Assembly: GCA_026929865.2 (NCBI GenBank)
Contig: CM049403.1
Coordinates: 30,921,001-30,985,000, forward strand
Length of the DNA: 64,000 nucleotides
Direction of reading: 5' to 3'
Origin: Hyperoplus lanceolatus
Taxonomy: Eukaryota; Chordata; Actinopteri; Uranoscopiformes; Ammodytidae
Of this stretch, positions 5,685-58,740 are shown piece after piece; position 1 is the stretch's first letter, and each line of letters starts with the position of its first letter. The translations under genes and the position numbers were made by a program. The notes under the pieces were generated by a model, which saw nothing but the letters and a program-made list of their open reading frames with translations, searched no databases and was not told the DNA's origin.

Positions 5685-8600
5685 ATGGCAAATCTAATGA
5701 TGTTGCCTGTTCTGTTTCTGGTGATGATAAGTTAGTATTTTATTAAATCTGATTCAATTATATTACGTTTCATTTTGTTTGATGTATGTGAATTCACTAA
5801 CAGACTTTGTCTATTGATGTTTGCAGTCAAGGATTTCCATCCAAATATATTTCTCTGTTTTTTCACAGGCAACGTGACTCCTCAGGTGACTTCAGGTATG
5901 GTGATGTCATAGTCAATTGCTGGTAACAGTTATCACTTAGGGATTTTACCTATGATCTCTGGGTTACTGCTAATATCACTGTTGTATGATTACTTGTTAG
6001 ATAGTACTGTACTAAAAGGATAATTTTTTTAGTAGGATTAATCTTCAATAGTCACAATTATATGTGGTGATCTAGAAAATGTTTGATGGGCTTTTGCAGT
6101 ATGGCCAACATCGATGATCATTTTATTCTATTTTTGTCTTTTGTTTAATGTGAGCTTTTTTGTTCTTTCTAGGACCCCTCTACCCGATTTCAGGAGAAAT
6201 ACTTGACAGAAACACAACAGATGACGGAAGTTCTCAAATCAATCTAAAACGGCCTTTCCCTTACTTTGGAGGCATAGAAACTAACCTTTACGTATGCAAT
6301 TTATGTATATTTTGGGGGGGAATCTATAAAATCCATATATTTTTAAAAGTTCTGAAAAATTCTGGTATGTTTAGTTGGGTAAACTTATTTTTATTAGTTT
6401 TCTTTATTAGTAAAACCTGGTTAATTTGTTTCCAGGTGAAGGTGAAAGGATCCTTGAACTTTGAGCAGGACTCTACCTCGACCAGCATTTATCCATTTAT
6501 TCCAATATCTACATTTTTAACTATCGAGAATAGTGGTGCAGTGTACTACGACCAACACACTAATGGAAGTGTTCTCCAACAAGCCACTGAAGACATAAAT
6601 GAGTATTTCCCATGGTTGAGCTTTACTGCCAGCTGGGTCTTTGTTGCAACATGGTATGAAGTGCCATTCTCTGGCACTCCAGATGCAGTAAGTGAACTTT
6701 ATCCTTCCTTCATATCCTCCTAAAATAGGACATCCTCAATGAAATACCTTATGCACACACACTTATATTATGTGCATAGAATTAATGCGTAAAATTAAAC
6801 AATGTCCTGAAAGTGCATTTAGTGTAAAGTCTTTTTAAGGATTATGGTGATCATATTGCAATTCCAATTCATTATCATCATTCATTCTGAGACAAAAATG
6901 TGAAAATTTAAAATAATAAAAGCTGACTTAATGGCCGTTATCTATGGTTGTAAGGGAAAAATATGCACCTAAGTGTAATTTTCTATTGTTTTTTTTCTAT
7001 TGTTTTTTTAAATTACTATACCGGGAAAATCTTGTTGCAGTACATACAGTGCTTACAAAAAGCAGTACATGTGGTAATGAATGAATAATTTTCCAGAATG
7101 CAACTTTCCAAGCTGTGTTGATCTCTGGAGACCAGTACTCGTTTCTGCTGATGAACTATGGGAGGATGAACTCAAAACCTTCTTCAGTGGTTAGAGCCGT
7201 TAAAATCATATGTGAAGTGCTACCAAATATGTTTTAAGTTGACATCCCTTTATTAAATCTGAACGCAGTAATGGACATTTAAATGACCAGAAAACTTAAC
7301 ATTCATTTGTATGTATGTGTCATGTATATCTAGGTTGGAGGATATGCCAAAGTCAATTCCACTCACCAATTTATCCTTCCTGGATCATTCACCAATTCAA
7401 CTTTCCACCTAAGCAGCAATGTCAATGAACGCGGTCGCTGGGTTTTCAGGACGGATCCAGGCTGCACATCCAATGGTAAGACCAGAACAAGACAGTGGTC
7501 ACCATAGGAACTTATTTACATTGATGGGTATATGTGAGAACAACTCGCCATGATCCTTCTTAAACTTTTTAATATTGTTACACATGCTGCAAATGTATCA
7601 CATAAAGTAACATGTTTTTAATCTTCTGATATCTTATTTTCTAAATTTGGTATTTGTATTGGTATGACAAAGGAGTTCTGAGTAGTTTTTGAATGTTGGT
7701 GTCCTACAAGGATACGATTCTGAACCTGACAATGCAATATCTGTGGATCTTGAAGGATGGTGACCCTTCTTGGTGGTCGTCTTCTTTACTCTCCCCCATT
7801 TTCTTGACCCGACTCTTATGTTTGCTGTCCAGGCAAAAATCTCCCGCCAAAGTAAAAAATTCAAATCATTTCTATGACATTGAAGTGAAGCCTTTTATCT
7901 CTGACCTGTCATACAATTCAATTTGGTCATCACTGACAACTGCTTTCCTCTTGTTTTTCTGCTAGTCTTTGCCATCCTTTCTGTCTGTTGACTTGCCATT
8001 CATTCCTGTAATATCATCTTTTATTCTGTCATTGCCACCTTTTCTTCTTAACTTCATCTTATCATAGTTGTGTTAATTTCTACCTCTGATTTAGAATTTA
8101 TTTTAATATTTATTAATCACAGTTTATTCTCGTTCAATCTCCAATCTCTTTTAATTTTCCACTTTTTCCCCATTCAGAAGTCACACCGAACATTTTAAGG
8201 TAAGGTACAATATTGTTTTCTTTGGGGGCTTATTCTGCACAACCCATGGTTTCACTAAACCCTCTATCACGATGTCATGATGAGTTCTAATTGCTAGAAT
8301 CTAATCCTTTTGTATTCATTGTATTCATTTATTATGACTGAATTGCAAAACAATGTCAGTTTCCATGATTATGTTGAAAGTTCCCATGACATATTTCAAA
8401 ACAATGGTGTGTAAATAAAGTCAGACAAAATTTTAAATGTTTAATCTATTTTCTAGATGTGACTCCACGGACGACTGTCCCCGTATGGAGGATTACTCTC
8501 AGCTCTGTAGCATCATCAACAACAGCAGCGGCCCATTCGCAGCCTGTCACCAGCAGTCTGACCCCCAGCCATTTTTCAACTCCTGTGTCTACGATCTCTG

Positions 8601-11600
8601 CCGCCTCACTTCAGCCAATGGCACGCTGTGTTCTGCTGTCTCAGCCTATGAAAGAACCTGCTCTGTTTCAGAGTTGAGCATCCCTGAGTGGCGCTTGGCT
8701 TCTCAATGTGGTATGTTTGCATTGATCTAATGGTACAGACAATGAATGCGAAAATAAATCTCAAGGTTAATTAAAGTTACCAAATGTCCGTTTTATGGTT
8801 AAAATATGTTTTCTGTTAATTGTTAAGTTTGTCCTATCCTTTCTTTATTTATCCTTTCTTTATTTAATTCAGTCTGATTCAATGATATTATGTTTTATTT
8901 TCTTTGATGCATGTATGTAAATTCAGACTTTGTCTATTGATGTTAGCAATCTAAGATTTTCATCCAATTATATGTGTTTGTTTTTTCACAGGTCCTCAGA
9001 CGACAAGTAGGCTAAGTGAACGTTGATAACTTCTTAGCTTTCATTGTTTCATCTCAAAGGCTAGACATATATGTACAGTAAATAGAAATTTCACATGTAA
9101 CATCTAGATGTAGACAATAAATAAGTATTGAGACAAAAAAGCCACATTTTATTTATGTGTTGTTTTTTCAGCCACTGTGGCTCCTCAGACGACTACAGGT
9201 AGGCCTACGTTTGGATAACCTCTAAAGGCCAGGACACACCAGCCCGATAATCGCCGTCGTCAAAAAAAATGGAGTCGGCCGTTTCAGGAAGCTCCAGCTT
9301 CCCGTCGCTGCTAAAGAACACACCGAGACGACTGTTTATTTTCCGTACGCTCGCGGGACGTAATGTCTCCACAACAGCAGGCGGCGCTAATCTGTATTGT
9401 GGCCCGAAAAAATACGAAAGCCGGAAATGATTGGACATCTCTCTAGAGCATAAACATAGATAGAAATACGTATTTATATTTATGGACCATAAGAGCACAA
9501 TTTTTAGCAGAGAGTGTCGAGCATGGTGTCGAGCAGTCAACAAGGGTTGATGCATGTGAGTACTCTCAAAACGAAACGAACAAACACATTAAAACGATGG
9601 CTAGCTGTTGTTAGCTGTTTGTGCTACCCGCCTCACTTCCGGGCTTCACTGATTCGCTAGCCCTCCACCAATCAAATTGCTCCAAATGAAAGACGGTCGG
9701 CCGCCTATTGAACATGTTCAATCGGCGCCCGACAGGCTCAAAACAAGCCCGACGACCTCTACGTCGGCCGACGTCACGGCACACACCAAACAGATTCGTC
9801 TTTTTTTTTGACGACGGCGATTATCGGGCTGGTGTGTCCTGGCCTTAAGTTTTCATTTGTACATTTGGCTGCACAATCAACAACATGGAATCTTCCCACA
9901 CTCAATGTTGAAAATAACTAATTATTAACTATAAACTGACAGACACAACCTAAAGTCTTTTTTTTATGTAGACAATGTAGAATAACTTTAGATAACTAAG
10001 TATTGAGACTAAGGGGCCCCTTACACGGTGAAAATGTGACAGTTTTCACGTTTTTGGTTTAAAAAAAACGTTCAGAAGCAATTTATTTGAAATATTCACT
10101 CGTACTCATGTTTTCAGAGGAAACGGGCCAAAATCGCTGCAAATGTTATAGACTACGCATGTGTGAAGTAGAGCCGTGACGTCAGCGTTACCAGGGAAAA
10201 TGGTTTCGGTGTTTACAAGAAACCAAAACAGTTGTGTTTTCCAAAATTTCCTCCCTGGGAGTTGATCTCAAAAACCTGCGGTTTCATGCGGTTTTATGCA
10301 CCTTAGGTGTAAGTAAGTTATTGAGACCACCCGCTGACTATTGGCTTGGCATGCTTACAAAAGCGATTTCGGCCCGTTTCCTCTGAAAACATGTGCACGA
10401 GTGAAGATTTCAAATAAATTGTGTCTGAACGGTTTAACTTTTGAACCCAGAAACGGGAAAACTGTCACGTTTTCACAGTGTAAAGGGCCCCTAAAAAGCC
10501 ACAACCTCCCCAATTATATTTATGCATTTGTTTTTCAGCCACTGTGGCGCCTCAGACGACTACAGGTAGGCCTACGTTTGGATAACATCTTAGCTTTAAT
10601 TTTTACATTTGGCTGGACAATCAACAATGTCAAAATCCGTTGCTGGTAACAGTTACTACTTCAGGACTATGACATCTAGTTTACTGCTAATATCACTGTT
10701 GTATCATTACCTGTAAGATAATAGGAATGAGTAGTTTTGGACAAAATATGTTATCTACAGCTAATAAATTACAAAGTTATAGTTTCAATCTAATTGTTTA
10801 TTTGACAGGTTTGAAATATATGTACAGTACAAAGGAATTTCACATGTAACATCTAGATGTAGACAATACCTAAGTATAGAGACTAAAAACCACAACCTTA
10901 AGTCTTGTACATTGATGTGAGGAGTCTCCGATTTTCATCCAATTATGTGTTTGTTTTTTGACAGGCTTTGTGGTACCTCAGACGACAAGTAGGCTAAGTG
11001 AACGTTGATAACTTCTTATGAATGTGAAAATAAATCTCAAGGTTAATTAAAGTAACCAAATGTCCGTTTTGCGGTTAAAATATGTTTTCTGTTAATTGTT
11101 TTGTTTGTCTTATCCTTCCTTTCTTTAATTCAGTCTGATTAAATGATATTATGTTTTATTTTGTTTGATGCATGTATGTAAATTCAGACTTTGTCTATTG
11201 ATGTTAGTAATCTAAGATTTTCATCCAATTATATGTGTTTGTTTTTTCACAGGCAGTGTTGATCCTCAGACGACAAGTAGGCTAATTGCACTTTGATAAC
11301 CTCTTAGCTTTCATTGTTTCATCTCAAAGGCTAGAAATATATGTACAGTAAATAGGAATTTCACATGTAACATCTACATGTAGACAATAAATAAGTATTG
11401 AGACAAAAAAGCCAAATTTTATTTATGTGTTGTTTTTTCAGCCACTGTGGCTCCTCAGACGACTACAGGTAGGCCTACGTTTGGATAACCTCTAAGTTTT
11501 CATTTGTACATTTGGCTGCACAATCAACAACATGGAATCTTCCCACACTCAATGTTGAAAATAACTAATTATTAACTATAAACTGACAGACACAACCTAA

Positions 11601-14600
11601 AGTCTTTTTTTTATGTAGACAATGTAGAATAACTTTAGATAACTAAGTATTGAGACTAAGGGGCCCCTTACACGGTGAAAATGTGACAGTTTTCACGTTT
11701 TTGGTTTAAAAAAAACGTTCAGAAGCAATTTATTTGAAATATTCACTCGTACTCATGTTTTCAGAGGAAACGGGCCAAAATCGCTGCAAATGTTATAGAC
11801 TATGCATGTGTGAAGTAGAGCCGTGACGTCAGCGTTACCAGGGAAAATGGTTTCGGTGTTTACAAGAAACCAAAACAGTTGTGTTTTCCAAAATTTCCTC
11901 CCTGGGAGTTGATCTCAAAAACTTGCGGTTTCATGCGGTTTTATGCACCTTAGGTGTAAGTAAGTTATTGAGACCACCCGCTGACTATTGGCTTGGCATG
12001 CTTACAAAAGCGATTTCGGCCCGTTTCCTCTGAAAACATGTGCACGAGTGAAGATTTCAAATAAATTGCGTCTGAACGGTTTAACTTTTGAACCCAGAAA
12101 CGGGAAAACTGTCACGTTTTCACAGTGTAAAGGGCCCCTAAAAAGCCACAACCTCCCCAATTATATTTATGCATTTGTTTTTCAGCCACTGTGGCGCCTC
12201 AGACGACTACAGGTAGGCCTACGTTTGGATAACCTGTTAGCTTTAATTTTTACATTTGGCTGGACAATCAACAATGTCAAAATCCGTTGCTGGTAACAGT
12301 TACTCCTTCAGGACTATGACATCTGGTTTACTGCTAATATCACTGTTGTATCATTACCTGTAAGATAATAGGAATGAGTAGTTTTGGACAAAATATGTTA
12401 TCTACAGCTAATAAATTACAAAGTTATAGTTTCAATCTAATTGTTTATTTGACAGGTTTGAAATATATGTAAAGTACAAAGGAATTTCACATGTAACATC
12501 TAGATGTAGACAATAACTAAGTATAGAGACTAAACACCATCACCTTAAGTCTTGTACATTGATGTGAGGAGTCTCCGATTTTCATCCAATTATGTGTTTG
12601 TTTTTTGACAGGCTTTGTGGTACCTCAGACGACAAGTAGGCTAAGTGAACGTTGATAACTTCTTATTAGCTTTCATTGTTTCATCTCAAAGGCTAGAAAT
12701 ATATGTACAGTAAATAGGAATTTCACATGTAACATCTAGATGTAGACAATAAATAAGTATTGAGACAAAAAAGCCACATTTTATTTATGTGTTGTTTTTT
12801 CAGCCACTGTGGCTCCTCAGACGACTACAGGTAGGCCTACGTTTGGATAACCTCTAAGTTTTCATTTGTACATTTGGCTGCACAATCAACAACATGGAAT
12901 CTTCCCACACTCAATGTTGAAAATAACTAATTATTAACTATAAACTGACAGACACAACCTAAAGTCTTTTTTTTATGTAGACAATGTAGAATAACTTTAG
13001 ATAACTAAGTATTGAGACTAAGGGGCCCCTTACACGGTGAAAATGTGACAGTTTTCACGTTTTTGGTTTAAAAAAAAAGTTCAGAAGCAATTTATTTGAA
13101 ATATTCACTCGTACTCATGTTTTCAGAGGAAACGGGCCAAAATCGCTGCAAATGTTATAGACTATGCATGTGTGAAGTAGAGCCGTGACGTCAGCGTTAC
13201 CAGGGAAAATGGTTTCGGTGTTCACAAGAAACCAAAACAGTTGTGTTTTCCAAAATTTCCTCCCTGGGAGTTGATCTCAAAAACTTGCGGTTTCATGCGG
13301 TTTTATGCACCTTAGGTGTAAGTAAGTTATTGAGACCACCCGCTCACTATTGGCTTGGCATGCTTACAAAAGCGATTTCGGCCCGTTTCCTCTGAAAACA
13401 TGTGCACGAGTGAAGATTTCAAATAAATTGCGTCTGAACGGTTTAACTTTTGAACCCAGAAACGGGAAAACTGTCACGTTTTCACAGTGTAAAGGGCCCC
13501 TAAAAAGCCACAACCTCCCCAATTATATTTATGCATTTGTTTTTCAGCCACTGTGGCGCCTCAGACGACTACAGGTAGGCCTACGTTTGGATAACATCTT
13601 AGCTTTAATTTTTACATTTGGCTGGACAATCAACAATGTCAAAATCCGTTGCTGGTAACAGTTACTCCTTCAGGACTATGACATCTAGTTTACTGCTAAT
13701 ATCACTGTTGTATCATTACCTGTAAGATAATAGGAATGAGTAGTTTTGGACAAAATATGTTATCTACAGCTAATAAATTACAAAGTTATAGTTTCAATCT
13801 AATTGTTTATTTGACAGGTTTGAAATATATGTACAGTACAAAGGAATTTCACATGTAACATCTAGATGTAGACAATACCTAAGTATAGAGACTAAAAACC
13901 ACAACCTTAAGTCTTGTACATTGATGTGAGGAGTCTCCGATTTTCATCCAATTATGTGTTTGTTTTTTGACAGGCTTTGTGGTACCTCAGACGACAAGTA
14001 GGCTAAGTGAACGTTGATAACTTCTTATGAATGTGAAAATAAATCTCAAGGTTAATTAAAGTAACCAAATGTCCGTTTTGCGGTTAAAATATGTTTTCTG
14101 TTAATTGTTTTGTTTGTCTTATCCTTCCTTTCTTTAATTCAGTCTGATTAAATGATATTATGTTTTATTTTGTTTGATGCATGTATGTAAATTCAGACTT
14201 TGTCTATTGATGTTAGTAATCTAAGATTTTCATCCAATTATATGTGTTTGTTTTTTCACAGGCAGTGTTGATCCTCAGACGACAAGTAGGCTAATTGCAC
14301 TTTGATAACCTCTTAAGGCCAGGACACACCAGCCCGATAATCGCCGTCGCCAAAAAAAATGGAGTCGGCCGTTTCAGGAAGCTCCAGCTTCCCGTCGCTG
14401 CTAAAGAACACACCGAGACGACTGTTTATTTTCCGTACGCTCGCGGGACGTAATGTCTCCACAAGAGCAGGCGGCGCTAATCTGTATTGTGGCCCGAAAA
14501 AATACGAAAGCCGGAAATGATTGGACATCTCTCTAGAGCATAAACATAGATAGAAATACGTATTTATATTTATGGACCATAAGAGCACAATTTTTAGCAG

Positions 14601-17600
14601 AGAGTGTCGAGCATGGTGTCGAGCAGTCAACAAGGGTTGATGCATGTGAGTACTCTCAAAACGAAACGAACAAACACATTAAAACGATGGCTAGCTGTTG
14701 TTAGCTGTTTGTGCTACCCGCCTCACTTCCGGGCTTCACTGATTCGCTAGCCCTCCACCAATCAAATTGCTCCAAATGAAAGACGGTCGGCCGCCGATTG
14801 TACAAGTTCAATCGGCGGCCGACAGGCTCAAAACAAGCCCGACGACCTCTACGTCGGCCGACGTCACGGCACACACCAAACAGATTCGTCTTTTTTTTTG
14901 ACGACGGCGATTATCGGGCTGGTGTGTCCTGGCCTTTACCTTTCATTGTTTCATCTCAAAGGCTAGAAATATATGTACAGTAAATAGGAATTTCACATGT
15001 AACATCTACATGTAGACAATAAATAAGTATTGAGACAAAAAAGCCAAATTTTATTTATGTGTTGTTTTTTCAGCCACTGTGGCTCCTCAGACGACTACAG
15101 GTAGGCCTACGTTTGGATAACCTCTAAGTTTTCATTTGTACATTTGGCTGCACAATCAACAACATGGAATCTTCCCACACTCAATGTTGAAAATAACTAA
15201 TTATTAACTATAAACTGACAGACACAACCTAAAGTCTTTTTTTTTATGTAGACAATGTAGAATAACTTTAGATAACTAAGTATTGAGACTAAGGGGCCCC
15301 TTACACGGTGAAAATGTGACAGTTTTCACGTTTTTGGTTTAAAAAAAACGTTCAGAAGCAATTTATTTGAAATATTCACTCGTACTCATGTTTTCAGAGG
15401 AAACGGGCCAAAATCGCTGCAAATGTTATAGACTACGTATGTGTGAAGTAGAGCCGTGACGTCAGCGTTACCAGGGAAAATGGTTTCGGTGTTTACAAGA
15501 AACCAAAACAGTTGTGTTTTCCAAAATTTCCTCCCTGGGAGTTGATCTCAAAAACTTGCGGTTTCATGCGGTTTTATGCACCTTAGGTGTAAGTAAGTTA
15601 TTGAGACCACCCGCTGACTATTGGCTTGGCATGCTTACAAAAGCGATTTCGGCCCGTTTCCTCTGAAAACATGTGCACGAGTGAAGATTTCAAATAAATT
15701 GTGTCTGAACGGTTTAACTTTTGAACCCAGAAACGGGAAAACTGTCACGTTTTCACAGTGTAAAGGGCCCCTAAAAAGCCACAACCTCCCCAATTATATT
15801 TATGCATTTGTTTTTCAGCCACTGTGGCGCCTCAGACGACTACAGGTAGGCCTACGTTTGGATAACATCTTAGCTTTAATTTTTACATTTGGCTGGACAA
15901 TCAACAATGTCAAAATCAGTTGCTGGTAACGGTTACTACTTCAGGACTATGACATCTGGGGCCGGTTGCACCAACTGGTCTTAACTAAGCCTGGTCGTAA
16001 CTGCTAAGTAGGGCTTAGCTAAGACCAGGCTTAAGAATGGACCTAACGCCGGTTGCACCAACGGGACTTACGCCTGGTCTTAACCACGCCCGGTCTTAGC
16101 CATGCGCGGCCATGTGAATGTTCCATGGAATGCGCATATCACTGCGTTGCTAGGATACCTCATGACGACATGCTATTTTGTTGAGACTGGACATCCAAAA
16201 TGATGGAGGAAATGAGAAGAGAAATTTCACTTATTCAGAAATAAGAAAACTGATAGAAATAGACCAACAGCGAGAACAAGGCACACTGACTGCAAGCAGT
16301 CCAACGAGGCTACTAGTGAGGGGAAAAAAGCAGCTTGGCGTGTGATTAGGTGTAGGCTACAGACAGCGTTAAAATAGGCCTAAATATTAGGCTACATATA
16401 GCGCTATAAAAAGAAGATTGGGTGCACACTTCTAGGCTTTTACAGTAGCATAGTATTTATTTTCTATTGTTTTTGTTTTTATAACGGATCGTTGCGCACA
16501 CAGCCTATGTGACGACGAGCCTCCTCCTGTGATGGAGGAGGCTCGTAATTTTTGTGAAGGCTACATAAACGTGTTGTTAACATAGGTCTACCCTTTGTCA
16601 TGCGGACAAAGCATGGGAATAGAAAACAGTAAACAGTAAAAGCAGTGTCGATCATACTGTAGTCTACAGCGACAGTCGAGAATTACGATCAGATTTTTCA
16701 TTCTCCCCCTCTCTCTTCCAGCGCACTTGATCCAAGCGCACCGCCACCGTTTATGCCCGTAAAAAGCTAGGTGTACACGGGCCCTTTATTAAAAAGTAAC
16801 AAAATCACATTGAGACAACTTAAAGTTGGTAAAGTAGGCTATACAGGTGCCTGTCTGCGTGTTGCCTGACAGCCATCGCCGTATGCAATTAATGCCACAG
16901 CGCATCAAGTTAGGCTACTTCAGTGCATTATGCCAACAGCTGAGTCTTTTAACAAGGGATCCATGCAGAGCTGCAGGTGAAGGGATCGCCTCTCCCGATT
17001 AACCAGTTAACTTGATGCGCAATGGCAATAATTAAAAAGGAAGAGCAGATAGGCAGACACCTGTATGGCGTTTTACCTTGAGAGAGAGAGAGAGAGAGAA
17101 TACGTGCGGCACACCATTTCTTTCCGCGAGCATTACTCATATTCTCTCATACCTTTGCTTTTGTTGACACACAACTGGATGGATTTGATGTTTATGGTAT
17201 AACAACAGCTTAGAATTTTGACTTTAAGCCTGCCCCTGACCAGGCGTAGGATTTACGCCTAGTCTTAGTGAAAAGAACGCTAAGCCCAGTTGGTGCAACC
17301 GGCGTAACTGTTAGGTCGGACTTAGAACGCCAAGTTACGACCAGGCGCAGTTAAGACCAGGCTTACGCCCAGTTGGTGCAACCCAGCCCTGGTTTAGGTT
17401 TACTGCTAATATCACTGTTGTATCATTACTTGTAAGATAATAGGAATGAGTAGTTTTGGACAAAATATGTTATCTACAGCTAATACTTTATAAAGTTATG
17501 GTTTCAATCTAATTGTTTATTTGACAGGTTTGAAATATATGTAAAGTACAAAGGAATTTCACATGTAACATCTAGATGTAGACAATAACTAAGTATAGAG

Positions 17601-20600
17601 ACTAAAAACCACAACCTTAAGTCTTGTACATTGATGTGATTTTCATGATTTTTCTCTGATTTTCATCCAACTATATGTGTGTGTTTTTTGACAGGCTTTG
17701 TGGTACCTCAGACGACAAGTAGGCTAAGTGAACGTTGATAACCTCTTAACTTTCATTGTTTCATCTCAAAGGCTAGAAATATATGTACAGTAAATAGGAA
17801 TTTCACATGTAACATCTAGATGTAGACAATAAATAAGTATTGAGACAAAAAAGCCACATTTTATTTATGTGTTGTTTTTTCAGCCACTGTGGCTCCTCAG
17901 ACGACTACAGGTAGGCCTACGTTTGGATAACCTCTAAGTTTTCATTTGTACATTTGGCTGCACAATCAACAACATGGAATCTTCCCACACTCAATGTTGA
18001 AAATAACTAATTATTAACTATAAACTGACAGACACAACCTAAAGTCTTTTTTTTTTATGTAGACAATGTAGACAATAACTTTAGATGTAGGCAATAACTA
18101 AGTATTGAGACTAAGGGGCCCTTTACACGGTGAAAATGTGACAGTTTTCACGTTTTTGTTTTAAAAAAAAACGTTCAGAAGCAATTTATTTGAAATATTT
18201 ACTCGTACTCATGTTTTCAGAGGAAACGGGCCAAAATCGCTGCAAATGTTATAGACTATGCATGTGTGAAGTAGAGCCGTGACGTCAGCGTTACCAGGGA
18301 AAATGGTTTCGGTGTTTACAAGAAACCAAAACAGTTGTGTTTTCCAAAATTTCCTCCCTGGGAGTTGATCTCAAAAACTTGCGGTTTCATGCGGTTTTAT
18401 GCACCTTAGGTGTAAGTAAGTTATTGAGACCACCCGCTGACTATTGGCTTGGCATGCTTACAAAAGCGATTTCGGCCCGTTTCCTCTGAAAACATGTGCA
18501 CAAGTGAAGATTTCAAATAAATTGCGTCTGAACGGTTTAACTTTTGAACCCAGAAACGGGAAAACTGTCACGTTTTCACAGTGTAAAGGGCCCCTAAAAA
18601 GCCACAACCTCCCCAATTATATTTATGCATTTGTTTTTCAGCCACTGTGGCGCCTCAGACGACTACAGGTAGGCCTACGTTTGGATAACATCTTAGCTTT
18701 AATTTTTACATTTGGCTGGACAATCAACAATGTCAAAATCCGTTGCTGGTAACAGTTACTACTTCAGGACTATGACATCTAGTTTACTGCTAATATCACT
18801 GTTGTATCATTACCTGTAAGATAATAGGAATGAGTAGTTTTGGACAAAATATGTTATCTACAGCTAATAAATTACAAAGTTATAGTTTCAATCTAATTGT
18901 TTATTTGACAGGTTTGAAATATATGTACAGTACAAAGGAATTTCACATGTAACATCTAGATGTAGACAATACCTAAGTATAGAGACTAAAAACCACAACC
19001 TTAAGTCTTGTACATTGATGTGAGGAGTCTCCGATTATCATCCAATTATGTGTTTGTTTTTTGACAGGCTTTGTGGTACCTCAGACGACAAGTAGGCTAA
19101 GTGAACGTTGATAACTTCTTATGAATGTGAAAATAAATCTCAAGGTTAATTAAAGTAACCAAATGTCCGTTTTGCGGTTAAAATATGTTTTCTGTTAATT
19201 GTTTTGTTTGTCTTATCCTTCCTTTCTTTAATTCAGTCTGATTAAATGATATTATGTTTTATTTTGTTTGATGCATGTATGTAAATTCAGACTTTGTCTA
19301 TTGATGTTAGTAATCTAAGATTTTCATCCAATTATATGTGTTTGTTTTTTCACAGGCAGTGTTGATCCTCAGACGACAAGTAGGCTAATTGCACTTTGAT
19401 AACCTCTTAGCTTTCATTGTTTCATCTCAAAGGCTAGAAATATATGTACAGTAAATAGGAATTTCACATGTAACATCTACATGTAGACAATAAATAAGTA
19501 TTGAGACAAAAAAGCCAAATTTTATTTATGTGTTGTTTTTTCAGCCACTGTGGCTCCTCAGACGACTACAGGTAGGCCTACGTTTGGATAACCTCTAAGT
19601 TTTCATTTGTACATTTGGCTGCACAATCAACAACATGGAATCTTCCCACACTCAATGTTGAAAATAACTAATTATTAACTATAAACTGACAGACACAACC
19701 TAAAGTCTTTTTTTAAAGTTTTGTTATTACATGAGACAATTTACATCAGGTCCAGTTATGTGGTATGTTGCATTGGTCTTATGGTACAGACGATGAATAT
19801 GAAACTACATCTTGAGGTAATTAAAGATTCCAACAGTCCATTTTATGGTAGAAAAATGTTCACTATAACTATTCCCATAGCTGAGTCAGACTCCTGTAAG
19901 GAGCTATACTGCACAGAGTTTGAGCGGTGTGGTGAGAAGGACGGTGTTTACGACTGCTTATGTGATAAGGACCATCAACGGCCAGACAATGAGACCTACG
20001 GTGAGTGCAGCTTCTCCTAAAACCCTGCTTTGTTTTTTAGATTACTGGCAGGTGCATTCCGGCAAAAATAGTTTCTTATGTCAGCCAAGGCTCATGGATA
20101 TTGTCGTAATGTGATTGGACAGACATGATTCCTCAGAAATTATGTTTAAATAACTGATGGTCAAATTTAAGCCAATGTTAAGCAACCTTTCACTTGTCTG
20201 TGGGTTTGTCAGTACAAGCAACACCTTCCAAACATCGATAATTGCACCTTTAACCATGAGATAAGCTTTGTAAAACCTAAATAAAGTTTTCTTCTATTTC
20301 ACTTTCAGAGTCAACCCTGACTTGTGCCGGAAGTTCAGCCAATATATCTGTGTCGCGCTGCCAGCTGTTTGAAGACGGCTTTCACTCTAGCACCCTCCAC
20401 CTCAAAAATGAGTCCTGCAAGGGACAACTCCAGGACGGACGACTGGTTTTCCACTATAACAATGATGATCAGCTGTGTGGGACAAGTCTCAAGGTACATT
20501 CCATAATGTTGATCAGATCAAACCAAATAGGATTTCAGATTTAGATCTTCTTCATGAGAAATAAAACAAAAATAATCAACTTATTTAATTTTGTCATTTT

Positions 20601-21911
20601 CATTTCAAGAGCAACGGAACCCATTTCATCTATGAGAACTCCATCCATGGTAACGTGGATCCCAATGAAGCTCCAATCAGCCGCCAGAGGAACATACATC
20701 TGGATATCCAATGTGCATACCCTCTGGACCAGGCCCTGGTTATGGCTGTGGGCATAAACCCTGTAGAGAGGTGAAAATACTGTCCTCTCTATTTTATTTA
20801 ATCTATTTCTTAAATTAGAGGTTACTAACTAAGTCATCAATATATGCTTTTTTATGTATAGTGACCTCTGTCTACAGCGATATGTCATGGTGTATTCAAT
20901 GTATGTAATGATAGTCGGGTATTATAATATTAATATTTAAACGTCCTACAAGGAACTTTTAAATGAAATTAATTAGTCAATTTTTGTCTTCTGTTGATGA
21001 TTAGTGCTGTGCAGTGACAGTATTATTACTATTATTTTTCTGTAGCATTGTGAACAAGAACCTTCCATCTACCAATGCAAACTATCGTTTGAGGATGACC
21101 CCCTACCAGGATTCTGGCTTCAGCTCCCCCCTGACCAGTGACAGTAACATAGAAGAGGAAATCTCCAAGCCGTTGTTTGTGGAGGTGCTGACTGAAGATC
21201 TTGATGCAAGTCAGATCTCCATCATCCTGGACTCTTGTTGGGCCACACCGGTCAACATGGCCAACTACCCTGTCCGCTGGGATCTCATTAGTGATGGGTA
21301 AACAAGCTACTGAAGCTTCACCTCGTCTTCACATAATGTCTTGTTGATTATCAACGTTTTTAAAAACGGGATCTCTCGCTCCACTTATCTTATTTTACAA
21401 ACTAACCCTGCTACTGTAGTTTACAGCATCATAACATTGTAACCTTGTCTTTTAGCTGTCCTAATCGAGATGATGGTTCAGTGGAGATTCATCAGAATGG
21501 CGTCTCCCTTGCAGCCCGATTCTCCTTCAAGATGTTCACCTTCATCAACTCTTCATCCATCCACCTGCACTGCAAGGTGCACCTGTGTCTTTTGAAACAT
21601 AGCAACTGCTCCACTGTAAGTATTACTGTGTATTTGTGTTTGTAGTGAGATATGATAGATTAACAACAACAGGTGCATTAGCAGAAGCTTCTAATGTTGT
21701 TTTCCTGCAGCAATGCTTTCACACGCGACGTCGGAGGGAAGTAACGTACCATGACACTACAGACATCTCAGTCGGACCACTAGTCTTGACGTCATTGGGC
21801 AATGCAAGAGCACGAAGAGAACTCGGCATGGAAGTCAGCAGTGCTTCAGGCCAGTTGACCTCCGTGGTGATCCTTCTAGTCAGTTTGCTGACTGCCACAA
21901 CTCTGACCTAA
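5685..21911 (+). CDS. Gene 1: NIDO-C8-(PQTT)n-EGF-ZP glycoprotein, full length
   Basis: This is a uromodulin/GP2/alpha-tectorin-like ZP protein of about 845 residues. Coding exons: 5685-5730, 5869-5895, 6173-6291, 6436-6687, 7097-7189, 7334-7475, 8178-8199, 8457-8710; mini-exons 8992-9006, 9172-9198, 10539-10565, 10965-10988, 11253-11276, 11442-11468, 12186-12212, 12612-12635, 12804-12830, 13548-13574, 13974-13997, 14262-14285, 15074-15100, 15819-15845, 17695-17718, 17884-17910, 18642-18668, 19068-19091, 19356-19379, 19545-19571; then 19881-20000, 20309-20493, 20610-20770, 21046-21297, 21456-21615, 21711-21911. All junctions are GT-AG and in frame; coding lengths sum to 2538 nt. The start MANLMMLPVLFLVMI is a signal peptide. 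The C-terminus has a polybasic HTRRRR cleavage site and a final hydrophobic run (SVVILLVSLLTATTLT) like a GPI-attachment signal. Families of this type form extracellular filaments or matrices at apical epithelial surfaces. Exon choice rests on splice motifs and alignment to genes 2-4, not on transcripts. Confidence 0.85.
6173..7475 (+). other. NIDO domain exons of gene 1
   Basis: Exons 6173-6291, 6436-6687, 7097-7189 and 7334-7475 encode a nidogen-like (NIDO) domain, as found near the N-terminus of alpha-tectorin, nidogen and mucin-4. Landmarks are FPYFGGIETNLYV, the GAVYYDQHTNGS segment, ATEDINEYFP and SWVFVATWYEVPF, followed by FQAVLISG and SFLLMNYG in the next exon. The domain ends near RTDPGCTSN. 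It is absent from genes 2-4. A single longer open frame covers the first two exons because the intron between them happens to stay open, but the splice sites and homology favour two exons. Confidence 0.85.
8178..8710 (+). other. C8 domain exons of gene 1
   Basis: A 22-nt micro-exon (8178-8199, phase 1 to 2) leads into 8457-8710. Together they encode a C8 domain of the kind that follows VWD domains. The diagnostic pattern is visible: CDSTDDC, SSGPFAACHQQSDPQPFF, NSCVYDLCR, LCSAVSAYERTC and WRLASQC. There is no VWD core between NIDO and C8, so the domain order is unusual but not unique among fish ZP proteins. The last codon is split, and its Gly is completed by the first mini-exon. Confidence 0.85.
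9226..9845. mobile_element. PIF/Harbinger-like MITE A, complete copy 1
   Basis: A 620-bp element with long terminal inverted repeats beginning AGGCCAGGACACACCAGCCC, flanked by TAA at 9223-9225 and 9846-9848. The homologous intron at 11482 onward has the uninterrupted site CTCTAAGTTTTC, so the empty site is present in the same window. A 3-bp TWA duplication is typical of PIF/Harbinger. Its internal open frame is not a transposase. Confidence 0.85.
10013..10491. mobile_element. MITE B, array copy 1
   Basis: A 479-bp element with terminal inverted repeats GGGGCCCCTTACACGGTGAA / rc, subterminal GTGACAGTTTTCACG words, and TAA on both sides. It sits in the intron between the first two mini-exons of unit 1. 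Confidence 0.8.
11442..12635 (+). repeat. Array unit 2 (three mini-exons)
   Basis: Mini-exons at 11442, 12186 and 12612. The SVDPQTT exon and its intron are missing. Start-to-start distance to unit 3 is 1362 bp. MITE B is present at the same place as in the other units. Confidence 0.85.
11660..12138. mobile_element. MITE B, array copy 2
   Basis: 479 bp, same termini and same intronic position in unit 2 as copy 1. The shared position shows that the element was inserted before the array amplified. Confidence 0.8.
12804..14285 (+). repeat. Array unit 3 (four mini-exons)
   Basis: Mini-exons at 12804, 13548, 13974 and 14262. It matches units 1 and 5 in exon content. A separate MITE A insertion follows its last exon, giving the same 2270-bp spacing to the next unit as unit 1 even though the insertion site differs. 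Confidence 0.85.
13022..13500. mobile_element. MITE B, array copy 3
   Basis: 479 bp, same termini and same relative position in unit 3. Confidence 0.8.
14316..14935. mobile_element. PIF/Harbinger-like MITE A, complete copy 2
   Basis: Same 620-bp length and same terminal inverted repeats as the copy at 9226, flanked by TTA on both sides (14313-14315, 14936-14938). The empty site CTCTTAGCTTTC is found after the homologous exon at 19356. It lies in a different intron from copy 1, so it is an independent insertion, not a by-product of unit duplication. Confidence 0.85.
15293..15771. mobile_element. MITE B, array copy 4
   Basis: 479 bp, same termini and same relative position in unit 4. Confidence 0.8.
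15958..17389. mobile_element. 1.43-kb element with nested inverted repeats
   Basis: Outer ends are GGGCCGGTTGCACCAACTGG and its near-complement ending in GTTGGTGCAACCCAGCCC. A second, inner pair (GCCGGTTGCACCAACGGG near 16048 and its complement near 17290) lies about 90 bp inside. Subterminal GGTCTTA/CCAGGC words repeat several times. An (AG)n tract lies at 17081-17098. It interrupts an intron of array unit 4 that is intact in the other four units. No transposase frame was seen, so it is non-autonomous; the superfamily is not determined. Confidence 0.75.
17884..19571 (+). repeat. Array unit 5 plus terminal mini-exon
   Basis: Mini-exons at 17884, 18642, 19068 and 19356, then a lone first-type exon at 19545-19571 before the EGF-like exon. 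The 19545 exon is the start of a sixth unit whose remainder is replaced by the intron leading to the EGF-like exon. Confidence 0.8.
18115..18594. mobile_element. MITE B, array copy 5
   Basis: 480 bp, same termini and relative position in unit 5. The intron sequence just before it differs slightly from the other units (a short extra TAGACAATAACTTTAGATG-like stretch). Confidence 0.8.
19881..21911 (+). other. EGF-like and ZP module of gene 1
   Basis: Exon 19881-20000 is an EGF-like exon (SCKELYC, RCGEKDG, VYDCLC; five Cys visible). It is 120 nt and phase 1 on both sides. The ZP module follows: 20309-20493 (ZP-N; LTC, SRCQLF, NESCKG, DDQLCG), 20610-20770 (YENSIHG, IQCAYPLD), 21046-21297 (YRLRMTPYQDSGF, DSCWATP), 21456-21615 (RFSFKMFTF, HLHCKVHLCL) and 21711-21911 (polybasic site, ISVGPLVL patch, hydrophobic tail). 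ZP domains polymerise after cleavage at the polybasic site releases a C-terminal propeptide. The ISVGPLVL segment sits where the external hydrophobic patch is expected. Confidence 0.85.
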
Positions 21912-28019: not shown

Positions 28020-30427
28020 TTATCTTTGTGCTCTTGCATTGCCCAATGACGTCAAGACTAGTGGTCCGACTGAGATATCTGTTGTGTCGTGGTACATTAC
28101 TTGCCTCTGAAATCTCTTTTTGGAACCATAAACTTCCCTCCGACGTCGCGTGTCAGGGTAGCAGGGCTTCAGGAAAACAACATTAGATTCCTCTGCTAAT
28201 ACACCTGTTGTTGTTAGTGTATCTAATCTCACTACAAACACAAAGACACAGTAATACTTACAGTGGAGCAGTTGTTCTCTTCCAAAAGACACAGGTGCAC
28301 CTTGCAGTGCAGGTAGATGGATGAAGCGTTGATGAAGGTGAACATCTTGAAGGAGAATCGGGCTGCAAGGGAGACGCCATTCTGATGAATCTCCACTGAA
28401 CCATCTGCTGGATTAGGACAGCTGGAAGACAAGGTTACAATGTTATTAGACTGTAAGCTACAGTAGCAGGGTTAGTTTGTAAGATAAGATAAGTGGACCA
28501 AGTAGAGAGCCCCTTTTTTCAAACTTTAATAATCAACCCGACCTATGTGAAGACAAGGTGAAGCTTCAGTAGCTAGTTTACCCGTTAATAATGAGATCCC
28601 AGCGGACAGAGTTGTTGGAGATGTTGACCGGTGTCGCCCAACAAGAGTCCAGTTTGATGGAGATCTGACGTGCATCAAGATCTCCAGTCCGCACCTCCAC
28701 AAAGAACTGCTTGGAGATTTCCTCTTCTATGTTACTGTCATTGGTCACAGGGGAGCTGAAGCCAGAATCCTGGTAGGGGGTCATCTTCAAACGGTAGTTT
28801 GCATTGGTAATGTTTGCATTGATAGATTGAAGTTTTTCGTTCACAACGCTACAAAGAACCAAAAACAAATACTGTGACTACACTTTGGGAATAATGAACT
28901 GACAGGTTTTTGGTCATTCTGAAGATTGAGAATACATTACAGTCAAAACTACTGGCTACAAAGAATACAACATGATATACACAAATGTATTATTGTCCCT
29001 GTAAATAAAAGATACTTTCATAAATAGATTAAATAAAAGGGAAGGGACCGTATTGTCACCTCTCTATAGGGTTTATGCTAACACCAATATCCAGGGCCTG
29101 GTCCAGAGGGTATGCACATTGGAAATCCAGATGTATGTTCCTCTGGCGGCTGACTGGACCTCCATTGGGATCCACGTGACCCTGGATGGAGTTCTCATAG
29201 ATTACATGGGTTCCGTTGCTCTTGAAATTAAATGAGAAAATGAAACAAATTGATTATTGTTGTTTTATTTCTTATGAATAAGATCTAAATCTGAAATCCC
29301 ATTCTGTCAGGGTTGAAAAACATTAAGGAATGTACCTTGAGACTTGTCCCACACAGCTGGTCATCATTGTTAAAGTGGAACACCAGTTGTCCATCCTGGA
29401 GTTCTCCCTTGCAGGACTCATCTTTGAGGTGTAGGGAGCTAGAGTGAAAGCCTTCTTCAAACAGCTGGCAGCGCGACACAGATATATTGGCTGAACTTCT
29501 GGCACAAGTCACGGTCGACTCTATGAAAGTGAAATACAAATAAAATGTTATTTAGTTTTTACAAAGCTTATCTCATGGTTAAATGTGCACTTATCGATGT
29601 CTGGAAGGTGTTGCTTATCGTGACAAATGCACAGAGAATAGAGTTGTAAAGTGAAAGGTTGCTTAACATAGGCTTAAATTTGACCAATTACGAGATATTA
29701 TCTCGTAATTACGAGATCTTTTCTCGTAATTACGAGATCCTGAGTGTGCTAACGGCTACATTAGCTGTGAAACTTTTTTTTATTTGGTGAATGCTCAGCG
29801 CCACCGTAGCAAGTAATCTTAAAAAACAAAAGCAGGGTTTTAGGAGAAGCTGCACTCACCATAGGTCTCATTGTCTGGTCGTTGATGGTCCTTATCACAT
29901 AAGCAGTCGTAAACACCGTCCTTCTCACCACAATGCTCATACTTTGTGCAGTACAGCTCCTTACAGGGGTCTGACTCAGCTATGGGAATAGTTGAGATAG
30001 TGAAATTTTTTCTACCATAAAATGGGCAATTGGAATCCTTAATTACCTCAAGATTTATTTTCATATTCATCGTCTGTACCATAAGACCAATGCAACATAC
30101 CACATTATTGGACTGGATGTAAATTGTCTCATGAAATAACAAAACTTAACAACAAAGACTTTAGGTTGTGGCTGTCAGTTTATAGTTAATAAAACAATGA
30201 ACGCTAAGATATTATCAAAGTTCACTTAGCCTACTTGTCGTCTGAGAAGTCACGCTGCCTGTGAATAAACAAACGCATATATTGGATGAAAATCTTATGA
30301 TAGACAAAGTCTGAATTTGCATACATGCATCAAAGAAAATAAAACTTAATATCATTTAATCACATTGAATGAAATACTTACTTATCATCACCAGAAACAG
30401 AACAGTCAACATGATTAGATTTGCCAT
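28020..30427 (-). CDS. Gene 2: short EGF-ZP glycoprotein, no C-terminal anchor
   Basis: Coding exons, in transcript order: 30427-30382 (signal peptide MANLIMLTVLFLVMI), 30258-30235 (mini-exon GSVTSQTT), 29979-29860 (EGF-like), 29520-29336, 29220-29060, 28848-28582, 28421-28262 and 28166-28020. The sum is 1110 nt, 369 residues plus stop, with all junctions GT-AG and in frame. NIDO, C8 and the long PQTT array are absent. The last exon keeps the TRRRR cleavage site and a second basic motif (SKKRFQRQ, absent from gene 1) and the ISVGPLVL patch, then stops with TAA at 28022-28020 where gene 1 reads Glu. The hydrophobic-tail sequence survives as untranslated DNA below 28020 and has an extra base. 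The product should be secreted without an anchor. Of the three short genes, this one has the cleanest splice sites. Confidence 0.8.
29690..29760. repeat. TACGAGAT palindromic repeats in gene 2 intron
   Basis: ATTACGAGAT and its complement ATCTCGTAAT alternate four to five times at 29690-29740, giving a foldback. This kind of block is common as part of small non-autonomous fish elements. The homologous introns of genes 1, 3 and 4 lack it, so it is an insertion. Confidence 0.5.
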
Positions 30428-38581: not shown

Positions 38582-41500
38582 TTATCTTCGTGCTCTAGCT
38601 TTGCCCAATCCCGTCAAGACAAGTGGTCCGACTGAGATGTCTGTAGTGTCGTGGTACATTGCTTGCCTCTGAACTCTCTTTTTGGAGCCATAGATTTCCC
38701 TCCGACGTCGCATGTTGAAGCAGGGCTGCAGGAAAACAACATTAGAAGCTTCTGCTAATGCACCTGTTGTTGTAAATCTATCTAATCTCCCTACAAACAC
38801 AAAGACACAGTAATACTTACAGCGGGGCAGGTGTTCACAAGACACAGGTGCACCTTGCAGTGCAGGTAGATGGATGAAAAGTCGATGAAGGTGAACATCT
38901 TGAAGGAGAATCGGGCTGCAAGGGAGGCGCCATTCTTAATAATCTCCACGGAACCATCCGCTGAATTAGGACAGCTGGAAGACAAGGTTACAATGTTATT
39001 AGACTGTACTACCGGGTTAGTTTGTAAGACAGGATACGTGGAGCAAGTAGAGAGCCCCGTTTTTCAAACTTTGATAATCAACAAGACATTATGTGAAGAC
39101 GAGGTGAAGCTTCAATAGCTTGTTTACCCGTTAATAATGAGATCCCAGCGAACAGAGTTGTTGGCCATGTTGACCGGTGTGGCCCAACAAGAGTCCAGGA
39201 AGATGGACATCTGACTTGCATCAAGATCTTCAGTCAGCACCTCCACAAACACTGGCTTGGAGATTTCCTTTTCCTTTAGTGTGTTATTGTCACTGAAAAG
39301 GGGGTTGATGAAGCCAGAATCCTCGTAGGGTCTCATCCTCAAACGATAGTTTGCACCGCCGGATGGAAGTGTTTTGTTCACAATGCTACAAAAAACATAA
39401 CACAAATACTGTGACCACACATTAAGAATAATGAGCTGACAGGTTTTTGGTCATTTTAAAGATTAAGAGTTATTCATTAATAAATACTTTACAGTTAAAA
39501 ATAGTGGATGCAATTACGGTAATACAACATGATATATACAAAGCGCCTAGAATATTTGATGCATTCACATTTCCCCCGTTAGAACAGGGTGGTTTTGTTT
39601 GGTTTGAAGGGTATGTCTGTTAGTGATTAATTACACCAGAATGTTGTCTTTGGCTTTATTATTGTCCCTGTTAATATGGAGCCCCAATGCCATAGAAAAA
39701 GACGGGCACAAACTGTGATGTGCAGATCTAGCACTGGTAAATATACTGTTATTGGAATACTTCAATTGTCTACGATGAACTTTCAGATGATGGTAAAGTT
39801 AAGTCATTTATAAACATCTGTAGAAAAATTAGACTAACTTATTTCATCTTAAAGTTCCTTGTAGGGGATTTAAATATTGAAAACTGACTACCATTACATA
39901 CATTGCATTCACCATGACATATCACTGTTGACAGAGGGCACTATACATAGAAAAACATATATTGATGACTTAGTTAGTAACCTCTAATTTAATAAATAGA
40001 TTAAATAAAATAGAGGGGACAGTATTTTCACCTCTCTACAGGGTTTATGCCCACAGAGAAATCCAGAGACTGGTTCAGAGGGTATGCACATTGGAAAGGC
40101 AGATTTATGTCCCTCCTGCGGCTGATTGGAGCCATACCGGCATCCACGTGACCCAGGATGGAGTTCTCATAGATGAAATGGGTTCCATTGCTCTTGAAAA
40201 GAAAAATACAAAATAAAAAAAGTTGATTATTGTTACTATATTTCTTATGAAGATCATTTAAATCTGAAATCCTTTTCAGTCAGAGTTGATAAACATAATG
40301 GAATGTACCCTGAGAACTGTCCCACACAGCTGATCATCATTGTTAAAGTGGAACACCAGTCGTCCATCCTGGAGTTGTCCCTTGCAGGAATCATTTTTGA
40401 GGTGTAGGGCGCTAGTGTGAAAGCCGTCTTCAAACAGCTGGCAGCGCGACACAGATATATTGGCTGAACTTCCGGCACAAGTCAGGATCGAATCTATGAA
40501 AATAAATACAAATACAACTTTATCTCTTTTTAACAAAGCTTATGTTATGGTTATAGGTGCAATTATCGATGTCTGGAAGGTGTTGCTTGTAGTGACAAAC
40601 CCACAGAGAACAGAGTTGTGAATTGAAAGGTTGCTTAACATTGGCTTCAATTTGACCATCAGTTTAAGTTATTTAAACATCATTTCTGAGAAATCATGTC
40701 TGTTCAATAACATTACTACAATACCCATGAACATTGGCTGATATTGCTTTGGATAGGAAATTATATTTTTACCAAGATGCACCTGCCAGTAATCTAAAGA
40801 AACAAAAGCAGGGTTTTAGGAGAAGCTGCACTCACCGTAGGTCTCATTGTTTGGCACTTTATGGTCCTTATTACATAAGCAGTCGTAAACACCGTCCTTC
40901 TCACCACAATGCTCATACTCTGTGCAGTACAGTCCTTCACAGGGGTCTGACTCAGCAATGGGAATAGTGGAGAAAGGATAAGAAAGATACAGGAAAATGA
41001 ACAGAAGACATTTTTCTACCATAAAATGGACAATTGGAATCCTTAATTACCTCAAGATTTATTTTCATGTTCAGCGTCTATACCATTAGACCAATGCAAA
41101 AATACAACTTAACTGGACATGATGTAAATTGTATAATGTAATAGCAAAACTCATAATCAAAGACTTTAGGTTGTGACTGTCAGTTTATTGTTAATAATTA
41201 GTTATTTTCAAAATATAGTTAGAGCATGGCAAGATTCCATGTACTGTGCAATTCCTAGTACATTTGTAATTCCCAATGTAAATGTTACCAACAACTGATT
41301 ATGACATTGTTGATTGTCCAGCCAAATGTACAAATGACAGCTAAGAGTTTATCCAAACTTAGGCCTACCTGTAGTCGTCTGAGGAGCCACAGTACCTGAA
41401 AAACAAATGCATAAATATAATGTGGCTTTTTAGTTTCTATTCTTAGTTATTGTCTACATCGAAATGTTTCTTGTGATATTCCTTTGTACTGTATATATTC

Positions 41501-42063
41501 CAAGCTTTTGAAATGAAACAATGAAAGCTAAGAGGTTATCAAAGTTAACTTAGCCTACTTGTCGTCGGAGGTTCCACAAAAAACAAACATATCCTTGGTT
41601 GAAAATCTTAGACTCCTAACATCAATGTACAAGACTTTAAGTTGTGGATTTTAGTCTCTATACTTAGTTAATTTGTATATCTAGACAGTGCCTGAAAAAC
41701 AAACGCATAAATATAATTGGGTAGGTCGTGGCCTTTTAGTCTCAATACTTATTGTCTACATCTAGATGTTACATGTGATATTCCTATGTACTGTGCAAAT
41801 ATTTCATTTGTTTTTAAATGAAACAATGAACGCTAAGATATTATCAAAGTTCACTTAGCCTACTTGTCGTCTGAGAAGTCACGCTGCCTGTGAAAAAACA
41901 AATGCATATATTGGATGAAAATCTTAGACTCCTCAATAGACAAAGTCTGAATTTGCATTCATGCATCAAAGAAAATAAAACTTAATATCATTTAATCAGA
42001 TTGAATGAAATACTTACTTATCATCACCAGAAACAGAACAGGCAACATGATTAGATTTGCCAT
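38582..42063 (-). CDS. Gene 3: EGF-ZP glycoprotein with altered EGF-exon acceptor
   Basis: Exons in transcript order: 42063-42018 (signal peptide MANLIMLPVLFLVMI), 41887-41864 (GSVTSQTT), 41395-41369 (TVAPQTTT type), EGF-like exon ending at 40836, 40493-40309, 40192-40032, 39385-39128, 38974-38821 and 38725-38582. The usual AG before the EGF-like exon has become TG. Three outcomes are readable. Exon start at 41015 (after GGTAG) adds exactly 60 nt in frame, a hydrophobic stretch CLLFIFLYLSYPFS. Skipping the exon keeps the frame because it is 120 nt and phase 1-1. Otherwise the message is lost. The lengths are 392 or 332 residues. The polybasic MRRRRE site and ISVGPLVL patch are kept, and the stop TAA at 38584-38582 removes the hydrophobic tail. 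Confidence 0.75.
41555..41705 (-). pseudogene. Two decayed mini-exons in gene 3
   Basis: At 41694-41699 an acceptor plus CACTGT remains, but the rest of a TVAPQTTT-type exon and its donor were deleted and joined to intron sequence. At 41554-41577 a GFVVPQTT-type exon keeps its donor and CCTCCGACGACAA but has lost the acceptor AG. They show that the ancestor of genes 3 and 4 had at least four mini-exons. The same two lesions occur in gene 4. Confidence 0.75.
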
Positions 42064-44380: not shown

Positions 44381-44387
44381 GAGATAC

Positions 44388-44458
<71 letters not shown>

Positions 44459-44470
44459 GGATAGATAGAT
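44388..44470. repeat. (GATA)n microsatellite
   Basis: About 20 near-perfect copies of the tetranucleotide with one GATG variant. It is the first of six such tracts in the right-hand part of the window. Confidence 0.95.
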
Positions 44471-46541: not shown

Positions 46542-46634
<93 letters not shown>

Positions 46635-46652
46635 GAGATAGATAGATAGATA
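46541..46652. repeat. (GATA)n microsatellite
   Basis: About 27 repeats with a single GAGA interruption. It is followed by the block with CCATTGACGCTCCTGGCACA that also follows the tracts at 54437, 56413, 57241 and 58033. Confidence 0.95.
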
Positions 46653-54430: not shown

Positions 54431-54436
54431 AGATAC

Positions 54437-56412: not shown

Positions 56413-58740
<2,328 letters not shown>

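Follow-up and report, generated by a model that had tools for sequence, protein, structure and literature searches.

The 64,000-nucleotide stretch of the Hyperoplus lanceolatus genome analysed here (contig CM049403.1, positions 30,921,001 to 30,985,000; hereafter the window) contains a forward-strand gene, designated gene 1, in which 20 mini-exons of 15 to 27 nt follow one another in tandem. The most probable reading, to which we assign a probability of about 0.7, is that of a recently amplified exon-plus-intron array in a teleost gene of the uromodulin/GP2/alpha-tectorin-like type, encoding a spliced stalk that is variable in length and probably O-glycosylated. A pattern scan located the mini-exons at 8992-19571 (+): one has 15 nt, eight have 24 nt and eleven have 27 nt. 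All 20 encode the motif PQTT, are preceded by AG and followed by gtaggc, and have phase 1-1 in the gene model, each adding 5, 8 or 9 residues to the protein. An initial interpretation of the DNA from its letters, referred to as the sequence-only reading, had proposed mini-exons of these lengths with this motif, phase and donor, and the proposal was confirmed for 20 of 20 units.

The mini-exons, all on the forward strand, fall into five types. Type a is represented by mini-exon 1 (8992-9006; 15 nt, PQTT). Types b and c, both of 27 nt and encoding TVAPQTTT, are one silent base apart. Type b corresponds to mini-exons 2 (9172-9198), 6 (11442-11468), 9 (12804-12830), 13 (15074-15100), 16 (17884-17910) and 20 (19545-19571), and type c to mini-exons 3 (10539-10565), 7 (12186-12212), 10 (13548-13574), 14 (15819-15845) and 17 (18642-18668). 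The 24-nt units belong either to type d, encoding FVVPQTT (mini-exons 4, 10965-10988; 8, 12612-12635; 11, 13974-13997; 15, 17695-17718; and 18, 19068-19091), or to type e, encoding SVDPQTT (mini-exons 5, 11253-11276; 12, 14262-14285; and 19, 19356-19379). The exon order is a b c d e b c d b c d e b c d b c d e b, with a higher-order grouping of units into a bcd e bcd bcd e bcd bcd e b. The two strands of the window together contain 22 copies of the core 11-mer CCTCAGACGAC, compared with 0.0087 expected from base composition, and 20 of the 22 lie in the array. Between the C8 and EGF-like domains the array encodes a stretch of 168 residues, composed of 40% Thr, 12% Pro and 4% Ser.

Gene 1 extends from 5685 to 21911 (+) and was modelled with 34 exons, those flanking the array being placed by splice sites; all 33 introns are GT-AG, and the single open frame comprises 845 residues. 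The gene starts with a signal-peptide exon of 46 nt (5685-5730), followed in the interval before the NIDO domain by a 27-nt mini-exon of phase 1-1, named mini0 (5869-5895; NVTPQVTS), which is the 21st member of the mini-exon family and lies outside the span of 8992-19571 that had been reported. Then come the NIDO domain in four exons (6173-7475; Pfam PF06119, E=2.5e-27), a 22-nt exon (8178-8199) that passes from phase 1 to phase 2 and sets the C8 frame, the C8 exon (8457-8710; PF08742, E=9e-19), the array, an EGF-like exon of phase 1-1 (19881-20000), and a ZP module in five exons (20309-21911; PF00100, E=4.9e-32) that ends in a hydrophobic C-terminal tail and the stop codon. The 22-nt exon joins NIDO to C8 and, unlike the mini-exons, is not a multiple of three, which makes in-frame skipping impossible.

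At E<=0.001, the Pfam matches of gene 1 were NIDO, C8 and ZP-C only, with no separate EGF match, no VWD match and no D8C/D10C domain found; several relatives have the VWD family PF00094. The EGF-like exon lies within a stretch matching uromodulin and GP2 chains: in a phmmer comparison with solved chains, the EGF-ZP part matched uromodulin (6zs5, E=7.6e-41) and GP2 (8xc5, E=1.9e-38). Basic, cleavage-like RRRR and RARR stretches of the ZP module, as well as the hydrophobic tail, are visible in the sequence. The ZP module with an EGF-like domain before it places gene 1 among the uromodulin/GP2-like proteins, and the combination of NIDO and C8 with ZP is of the alpha-tectorin-like kind, in line with top database matches named alpha-tectorin or alpha-tectorin-like. 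Because of the missing VWD match, gene 1 would be at most a shortened relative of alpha-tectorin and not a full alpha-tectorin. No RNA family matched the window at the Rfam gathering score.

In the mechanism proposed, the array units would be spliced into the mRNA and would encode a stalk, disordered and probably O-glycosylated, whose length of up to about 168 residues would space a NIDO-C8 head from an EGF-ZP base. Since the units are symmetric and the junction codons always encode Ala, Thr, Gly or Ser, stalk length could change without breaking the protein, and unequal exchange in the DNA and skipping in the RNA would both alter it in this way. Variable splicing, which may differ between tissues, and variation in array copy number between individuals are both predicted.

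Frame neutrality and splice signals

When between 0 and 20 mini-exons were drawn at random 20,000 times, with repetition and in any order, neither a frame loss nor an internal stop was encountered, as expected from the claim of the sequence-only reading that any subset, number or order of units can be spliced in frame. The six junction codons it had listed (GCC, ACC, GGC, AGC, GGT and AGT) are indeed the only ones formed among mini-exons and with the C8 exon; the join to the EGF-like exon adds GCT and ACT.

Read-through of the donor leads to a stop by the 15th codon in 20 of 20 mini-exons, and an in-frame stop is located 14-20 codons upstream of each of them. Because of these stops on both sides, the array cannot be one exon, so that the candidate of a single long coding exon or coding minisatellite, in favour of which nothing was found, was rejected, its probability being negligible. 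Use of the introns as one long exon, an outcome that had been named in advance, was looked for and is excluded by the same stops in all 20 cases.

As a simple yardstick of donor strength, 56 donors across four genes were scored by their duplex with the 5' end of U1. The 11 mini-exons of types b and c have the context CAG/gtaggc and a duplex energy of -10.7 kcal/mol, which ties with two mini-exon donors of the paralogs P4 and P5 described below as the strongest of the 56. A further 31 scored donors of the four genes, mini0 included, are all weaker than those of types b and c (best -10.5, mean -7.0 kcal/mol). The nine mini-exons of types a, d and e have the context CAA/gtaggc and reach -4.2 kcal/mol. 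The earlier view that the donors are weak and favour variable inclusion therefore holds for 9 of the 20 and fails for the remaining 11. According to these scores, types b and c would be mostly included, and types a, d and e would be skipped more often. The strong b/c donor sits in a 10-base palindrome, GTAGGCCTAC, at 9199-9208 and at ten equivalent donors of the array.

These donors bear on the alternative that all 20 mini-exons are constitutive, giving a fixed stalk of 168 residues that changes in length only over generations by recombination. The 11 donors tied for strongest are compatible with it, as are the acceptors, which by eye are T-rich and uniform throughout the array. However, the weakness of nine donors speaks against it, and so do the isoforms of a relative, which differ by whole modules; we regard a constitutive stalk as unlikely.

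This relative, LOC127627216 of Xyrauchen texanus, is a NIDO gene found in the protein search, with isoform names up to X48. It resembles gene 1 in its Thr-rich stalk with short PQTS modules, its junction residues being mostly Ala or Gly, but its stalk is N-terminal of NIDO and has extra 20-residue modules, and the isoforms read have no ZP base. Seventeen isoforms (P0072-P0088) were compared; each represents a cluster of sequences (27 in the case of P0087), and together they are a minority of those named up to X48. All 17 are identical after the N-terminal stalk, which measures 219-351 residues including the signal peptide and is made of short PQTS modules and the 20-residue modules. Each of the 17 is an ordered subset, 15-25 modules long, of the 25 modules of P0086; there are 8 distinct module strings and further single Ala differences, which we infer to come from alternative NAG acceptors. 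An 18th sequence, P0121, was excluded, since it differs outside the stalk, where it continues at EFNTTTN and has no ELNTTTN junction. A cruder subset test failed for 15 of the 18 sequences because optional Ala and runs of T were counted as separate modules; with a key based on module cores, 17 of 17 passed. Such a pattern would be expected if short symmetric exons were included as cassettes.

Growth of the array

The repeat unit consists of an exon plus an intron. Sixteen of the 19 introns between mini-exons were compared, leaving out the three that follow mini-exons 2, 12 and 14 and carry insertions of the elements H1 or H3. Divergence at like positions was 0.42-0.98% for b-to-c introns (4 copies), 0.25-2.5% for c-to-d introns (4 copies), 0% for d-to-e introns (3 copies) and 0-4.9% for the introns leading from a, d or e to b (5 copies). 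The proposal that the repeat acts at the level of exon plus intron is supported by these differences of only 0-5%, and, judged from the sequence, the array has grown recently through exon-plus-intron duplication.

Repeat analysis identified three inserted elements. A palindromic miniature inverted-repeat transposable element (MITE), H2, is present once in each of the five b-to-c introns, at 10013-10491 (+) in the first, with the target site duplication (TSD) TAA, and at 11660-12138, 13022-13500, 15293-15771 and 18115-18594 in the others; no match of at least 120 nt was found outside the array. This occurrence in five of five introns, together with the absence of such a match elsewhere, indicates that H2 probably entered before the amplification. 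The MITE H1 was inserted twice independently, at 9227-9844 (+; TSD TAA) in the b-to-c intron between mini-exons 2 and 3 and at 14317-14934 (+; TSD TTA) in the e-to-b intron between mini-exons 12 and 13, whereas H3 is represented by one insertion at 15960, in the intron after mini-exon 14. The TSD TWA of the MITEs suggests that they are presumably of the PIF/Harbinger kind.

Introns that are 95-100% alike might be misjoined by assemblers, and the copy number could in that case be an artefact of a smaller array. However, substitutions distinguish the units, as do the two H1 insertions with their different TSDs and the single H3 insertion. Given that these differences tell units apart, several units at least should be real, and an artefact is very improbable.

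For the 5' arm of each H2 copy, complementarity is equally high to its own 3' arm and to those of all other copies, at 112-114 of 130 bases. It is conceivable, though a long shot, that the introns themselves help to set stalk length, with H2 copies pairing and looping out the intervening c-d-(e)-b block. Such pairing would favour block skipping, circular RNA or exon repetition, the last of which would yield stalks longer than the genomic array. Passages of a report on the SmPoMuc genes of Schistosoma mansoni likewise propose that complementary intron sequences, of 12-13 nt in that case, aid exon repetition (PMC2576457).

Introns upstream of types e and a are 81-88% like the signal-peptide introns of the paralogs. 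On account of this resemblance, the array probably descends from a mini-exon block of the kind that in the paralogs follows the signal peptide.

The identity of the mini-exons was considered as a possible sign of selection. None of 102 exon columns is variable in types b to e (type a being a single copy), compared with 29 of 1545 ungapped columns in the array introns. At the intron rate, the probability of observing no variable exon column is 0.14, a rough value, since the estimate assumes independent columns and the exons and introns have unequal copy numbers. As the introns show almost the same degree of identity, the identity of the exons within the array was rejected as a sign of selection. 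An earlier count of flanking columns (136 of 838 variable) was dropped, since it mixed non-homologous joins and transposable element insertions. The array is too young for a selection test based on identity. Intact mini-exon lengths of 15, 21 (in P5), 24 and 27 nt are all multiples of three, which favours coding use, although such lengths are few.

Paralogs and relatives

Three paralogs are encoded on the reverse strand of the same window. P2 (28020-30427, -; 369 residues) has a signal peptide, one mini-exon (30235-30258), EGF and ZP. P4 (38582-42063, -; 372 residues) has a signal peptide, the mini-exons 41864-41887 and 41369-41395, an EGF exon with a TG acceptor, and ZP. P5 (48916-52328, -; 366 residues) has the layout of P4, with the mini-exons 52132-52152 and 51643-51669; the first of these, of 21 nt, differs by 3 nt from its P4 counterpart. 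The frames of P2, P4 and P5 are otherwise open, and a search of the window with the whole protein matched NIDO and C8 only within gene 1. There are 20 intact mini-exons before EGF in gene 1, one in P2, two in P4 and two in P5; on these gene models, the number of intact mini-exons is labile within one cluster.

P2, P4 and P5 end (at 28020, 38582 and 48916, - strand) before the hydrophobic tail that is kept in gene 1, and because this tail is absent they may be secreted forms. The EGF exon of P4 (40836-40955, -) and P5 (51100-51219, -) is preceded by TG, whereas AG is found in gene 1 and P2. The modelled frames of P4 and P5 are open despite the TG, and the exon length differences between the two are multiples of three. 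Human genes with TG acceptors are documented (PMC2374985). P4 and P5 have either a working TG site or the status of early pseudogenes. A remnant of a further paralog, P3 (32464-33531), consists of ZP pieces in both orientations, and no full gene was found there. AGAT/ATAG microsatellites are located at 44382-44471, 46542-46652, 54431-54520 and 56413-58415, four of these microsatellites being followed by a ATTATAAATTAA-type repeat, which suggests that P4 and P5 are surrounded by segmental repeats.

The protein search with gene 1 was evaluated for the best 120 of 175 matches. Fish proteins with the names alpha-tectorin-like, uromodulin-like or GP2-like make up most of these, the top match being from Scomber scombrus (53% identity over 76% of the query), and no close relative with the same array is among them. 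PQ[TS][TS] is found in 21 of the 120, of which 17 are X. texanus isoforms. Between signal peptide and NIDO, Sebastes (P0008) has two PQ[ST]T units and Scomber (P0001) lacks PQT units. In P0029 and P0034, in both after a different domain, and in P0127, EGF is preceded by a Thr-rich stretch that differs in sequence. In P0002, a relative from Fundulus heteroclitus, a GGMTTQN-type repeat, about 8 residues long and matched 30 times, lies between two EGF copies and forms another stalk expansion, perhaps of 24-nt units. Modular stalks may thus recur in fish NIDO/ZP genes.

Several observations weigh against a spliced stalk of variable length in gene 1. The gene is known here from genomic sequence alone, and no transcript was seen. 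The exon identity of the array does not exceed the neutral expectation, and 9 of its 20 donors are weak. In the X. texanus parallel the 20-residue modules vary too, and its exons are inferred from RefSeq-type predicted proteins only. P4 and P5 contain two decayed mini-exons each, located in P4 between the intact two; one lacks the acceptor and first bases, and the other is truncated and has a stop. Finally, the C8-EGF junction was inspected in predicted relatives: a linker pattern picked out 26 of 182 proteins, and by eye these comprised 12 such junctions and 14 other cysteine-rich stretches. Eleven of the 12 have a linker of 5 residues, and the twelfth, in P0015, is 79 residues long and free of PQT units, so that a stalk at this site would be dispensable in those relatives, though gene predictors could miss such small exons.

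Part of this evidence fits the alternative that the array is a largely unused intronic duplication, with the mini-exons mostly skipped and C8 joined straight to EGF. The exon conservation that is not above chance, the short linkers in 11 of 12 relatives and the decay of two out of four mini-exons in each of P4 and P5 would all be expected under it. Nevertheless, splice sites and frame are intact in 20 of 20 units and the intact mini-exon lengths are all multiples of three, and the chances of an unused array appear small, on a par with those of the constitutive stalk. A spliced array of variable length is accordingly the reading that we prefer.

Known systems and significance

SmPoMuc is the closest precedent found for this array. 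The passages of PMC2576457 describe the 27-bp exon 2 and its flanking introns as a unit of about 1 kb that is repeated in tandem as many as 20 times in a gene, and transcripts with 1 to 100 repeats. The system thereby shares with gene 1 a short symmetric exon that is repeated in tandem with its introns; SmPoMuc is a mucin-type secreted protein in which 27-bp exons were amplified with introns, the copy number varies between family members, and transcripts vary. In contrast, the SmPoMuc units as described there contain a single exon, are separated by microsatellites and belong to a parasite, whereas gene 1 is from a vertebrate, has five exon types in a higher-order arrangement as well as intronic MITEs, and places the stalk within a NIDO-C8-EGF-ZP protein. 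The likeness would be one of working, and common descent is not claimed. The sequence-only reading was right about a Thr/Pro-rich stretch between C8 and EGF, but its contrast with mucins encoded in one exon overlooked SmPoMuc. According to PMC13345508, all mucins harbour a large exon of variable number tandem repeats (VNTRs). A fish precedent for a stalk of tandem mini-exons was not among the literature matches listed, which leaves room for one in print.

Other systems share single aspects of the array. In passages of PMC10526429 and PMC5825161, the micro-exon genes (MEGs) of schistosomes are described as encoding secreted proteins mostly from short exons, the majority of which are multiples of three and allow in-frame skipping; near-identical tandem copies are not described in these passages. 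Reference 10 of PMC10526429, cited here by the opening words of its title ('Tandemly Repeated Exons Encode'), points to an older schistosome precedent. The kringle IV-2 VNTR of human LPA has an exon-plus-intron unit of 5.6 kb that, in the passages of PMC11462820, occurs 1-40 times per allele. It is similar in the copy-number polymorphism of an exon-plus-intron unit and differs in that each unit, as described, encodes a folded kringle from two exons of about 160 and 182 bp. The hinge exons of human IGHG3 are duplicated copies, few in number compared with the array. A linker length polymorphism and a long hinge of 4 exons are reported for this gene in passages of PMC12526884.

Gene 1 also has links to the omcins, which passages of PMC11415648 present as an expanded uromodulin/GP2-like family of teleosts, in clusters of 1 to more than 15 genes and with an EGF-ZP base. 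There, omc5 goes up in response to bacteria, and zebrafish that have lost it are more susceptible. A term search of the main text of that paper returned no occurrence of splic*, stalk or O-glyc*. The EGF-ZP base is common to omcins and gene 1, whereas omcins have D10C domains and gene 1 has NIDO and C8. By analogy, we infer that gene 1 may share the omcin role.

As exons of 15-27 nt are easily overlooked, an array of this kind could escape normal annotation. The array of tandem mini-exons in gene 1 is a real and unusual feature of a vertebrate gene; its host protein is uromodulin-like, and the array could in principle work like SmPoMuc. If it does, vertebrates would have a counterpart of the schistosome system, with a variable-number repeat that acts on whole mini-exons and not inside one exon, and DNA copy number and splicing could both tune the stalk length of a uromodulin-like surface protein.

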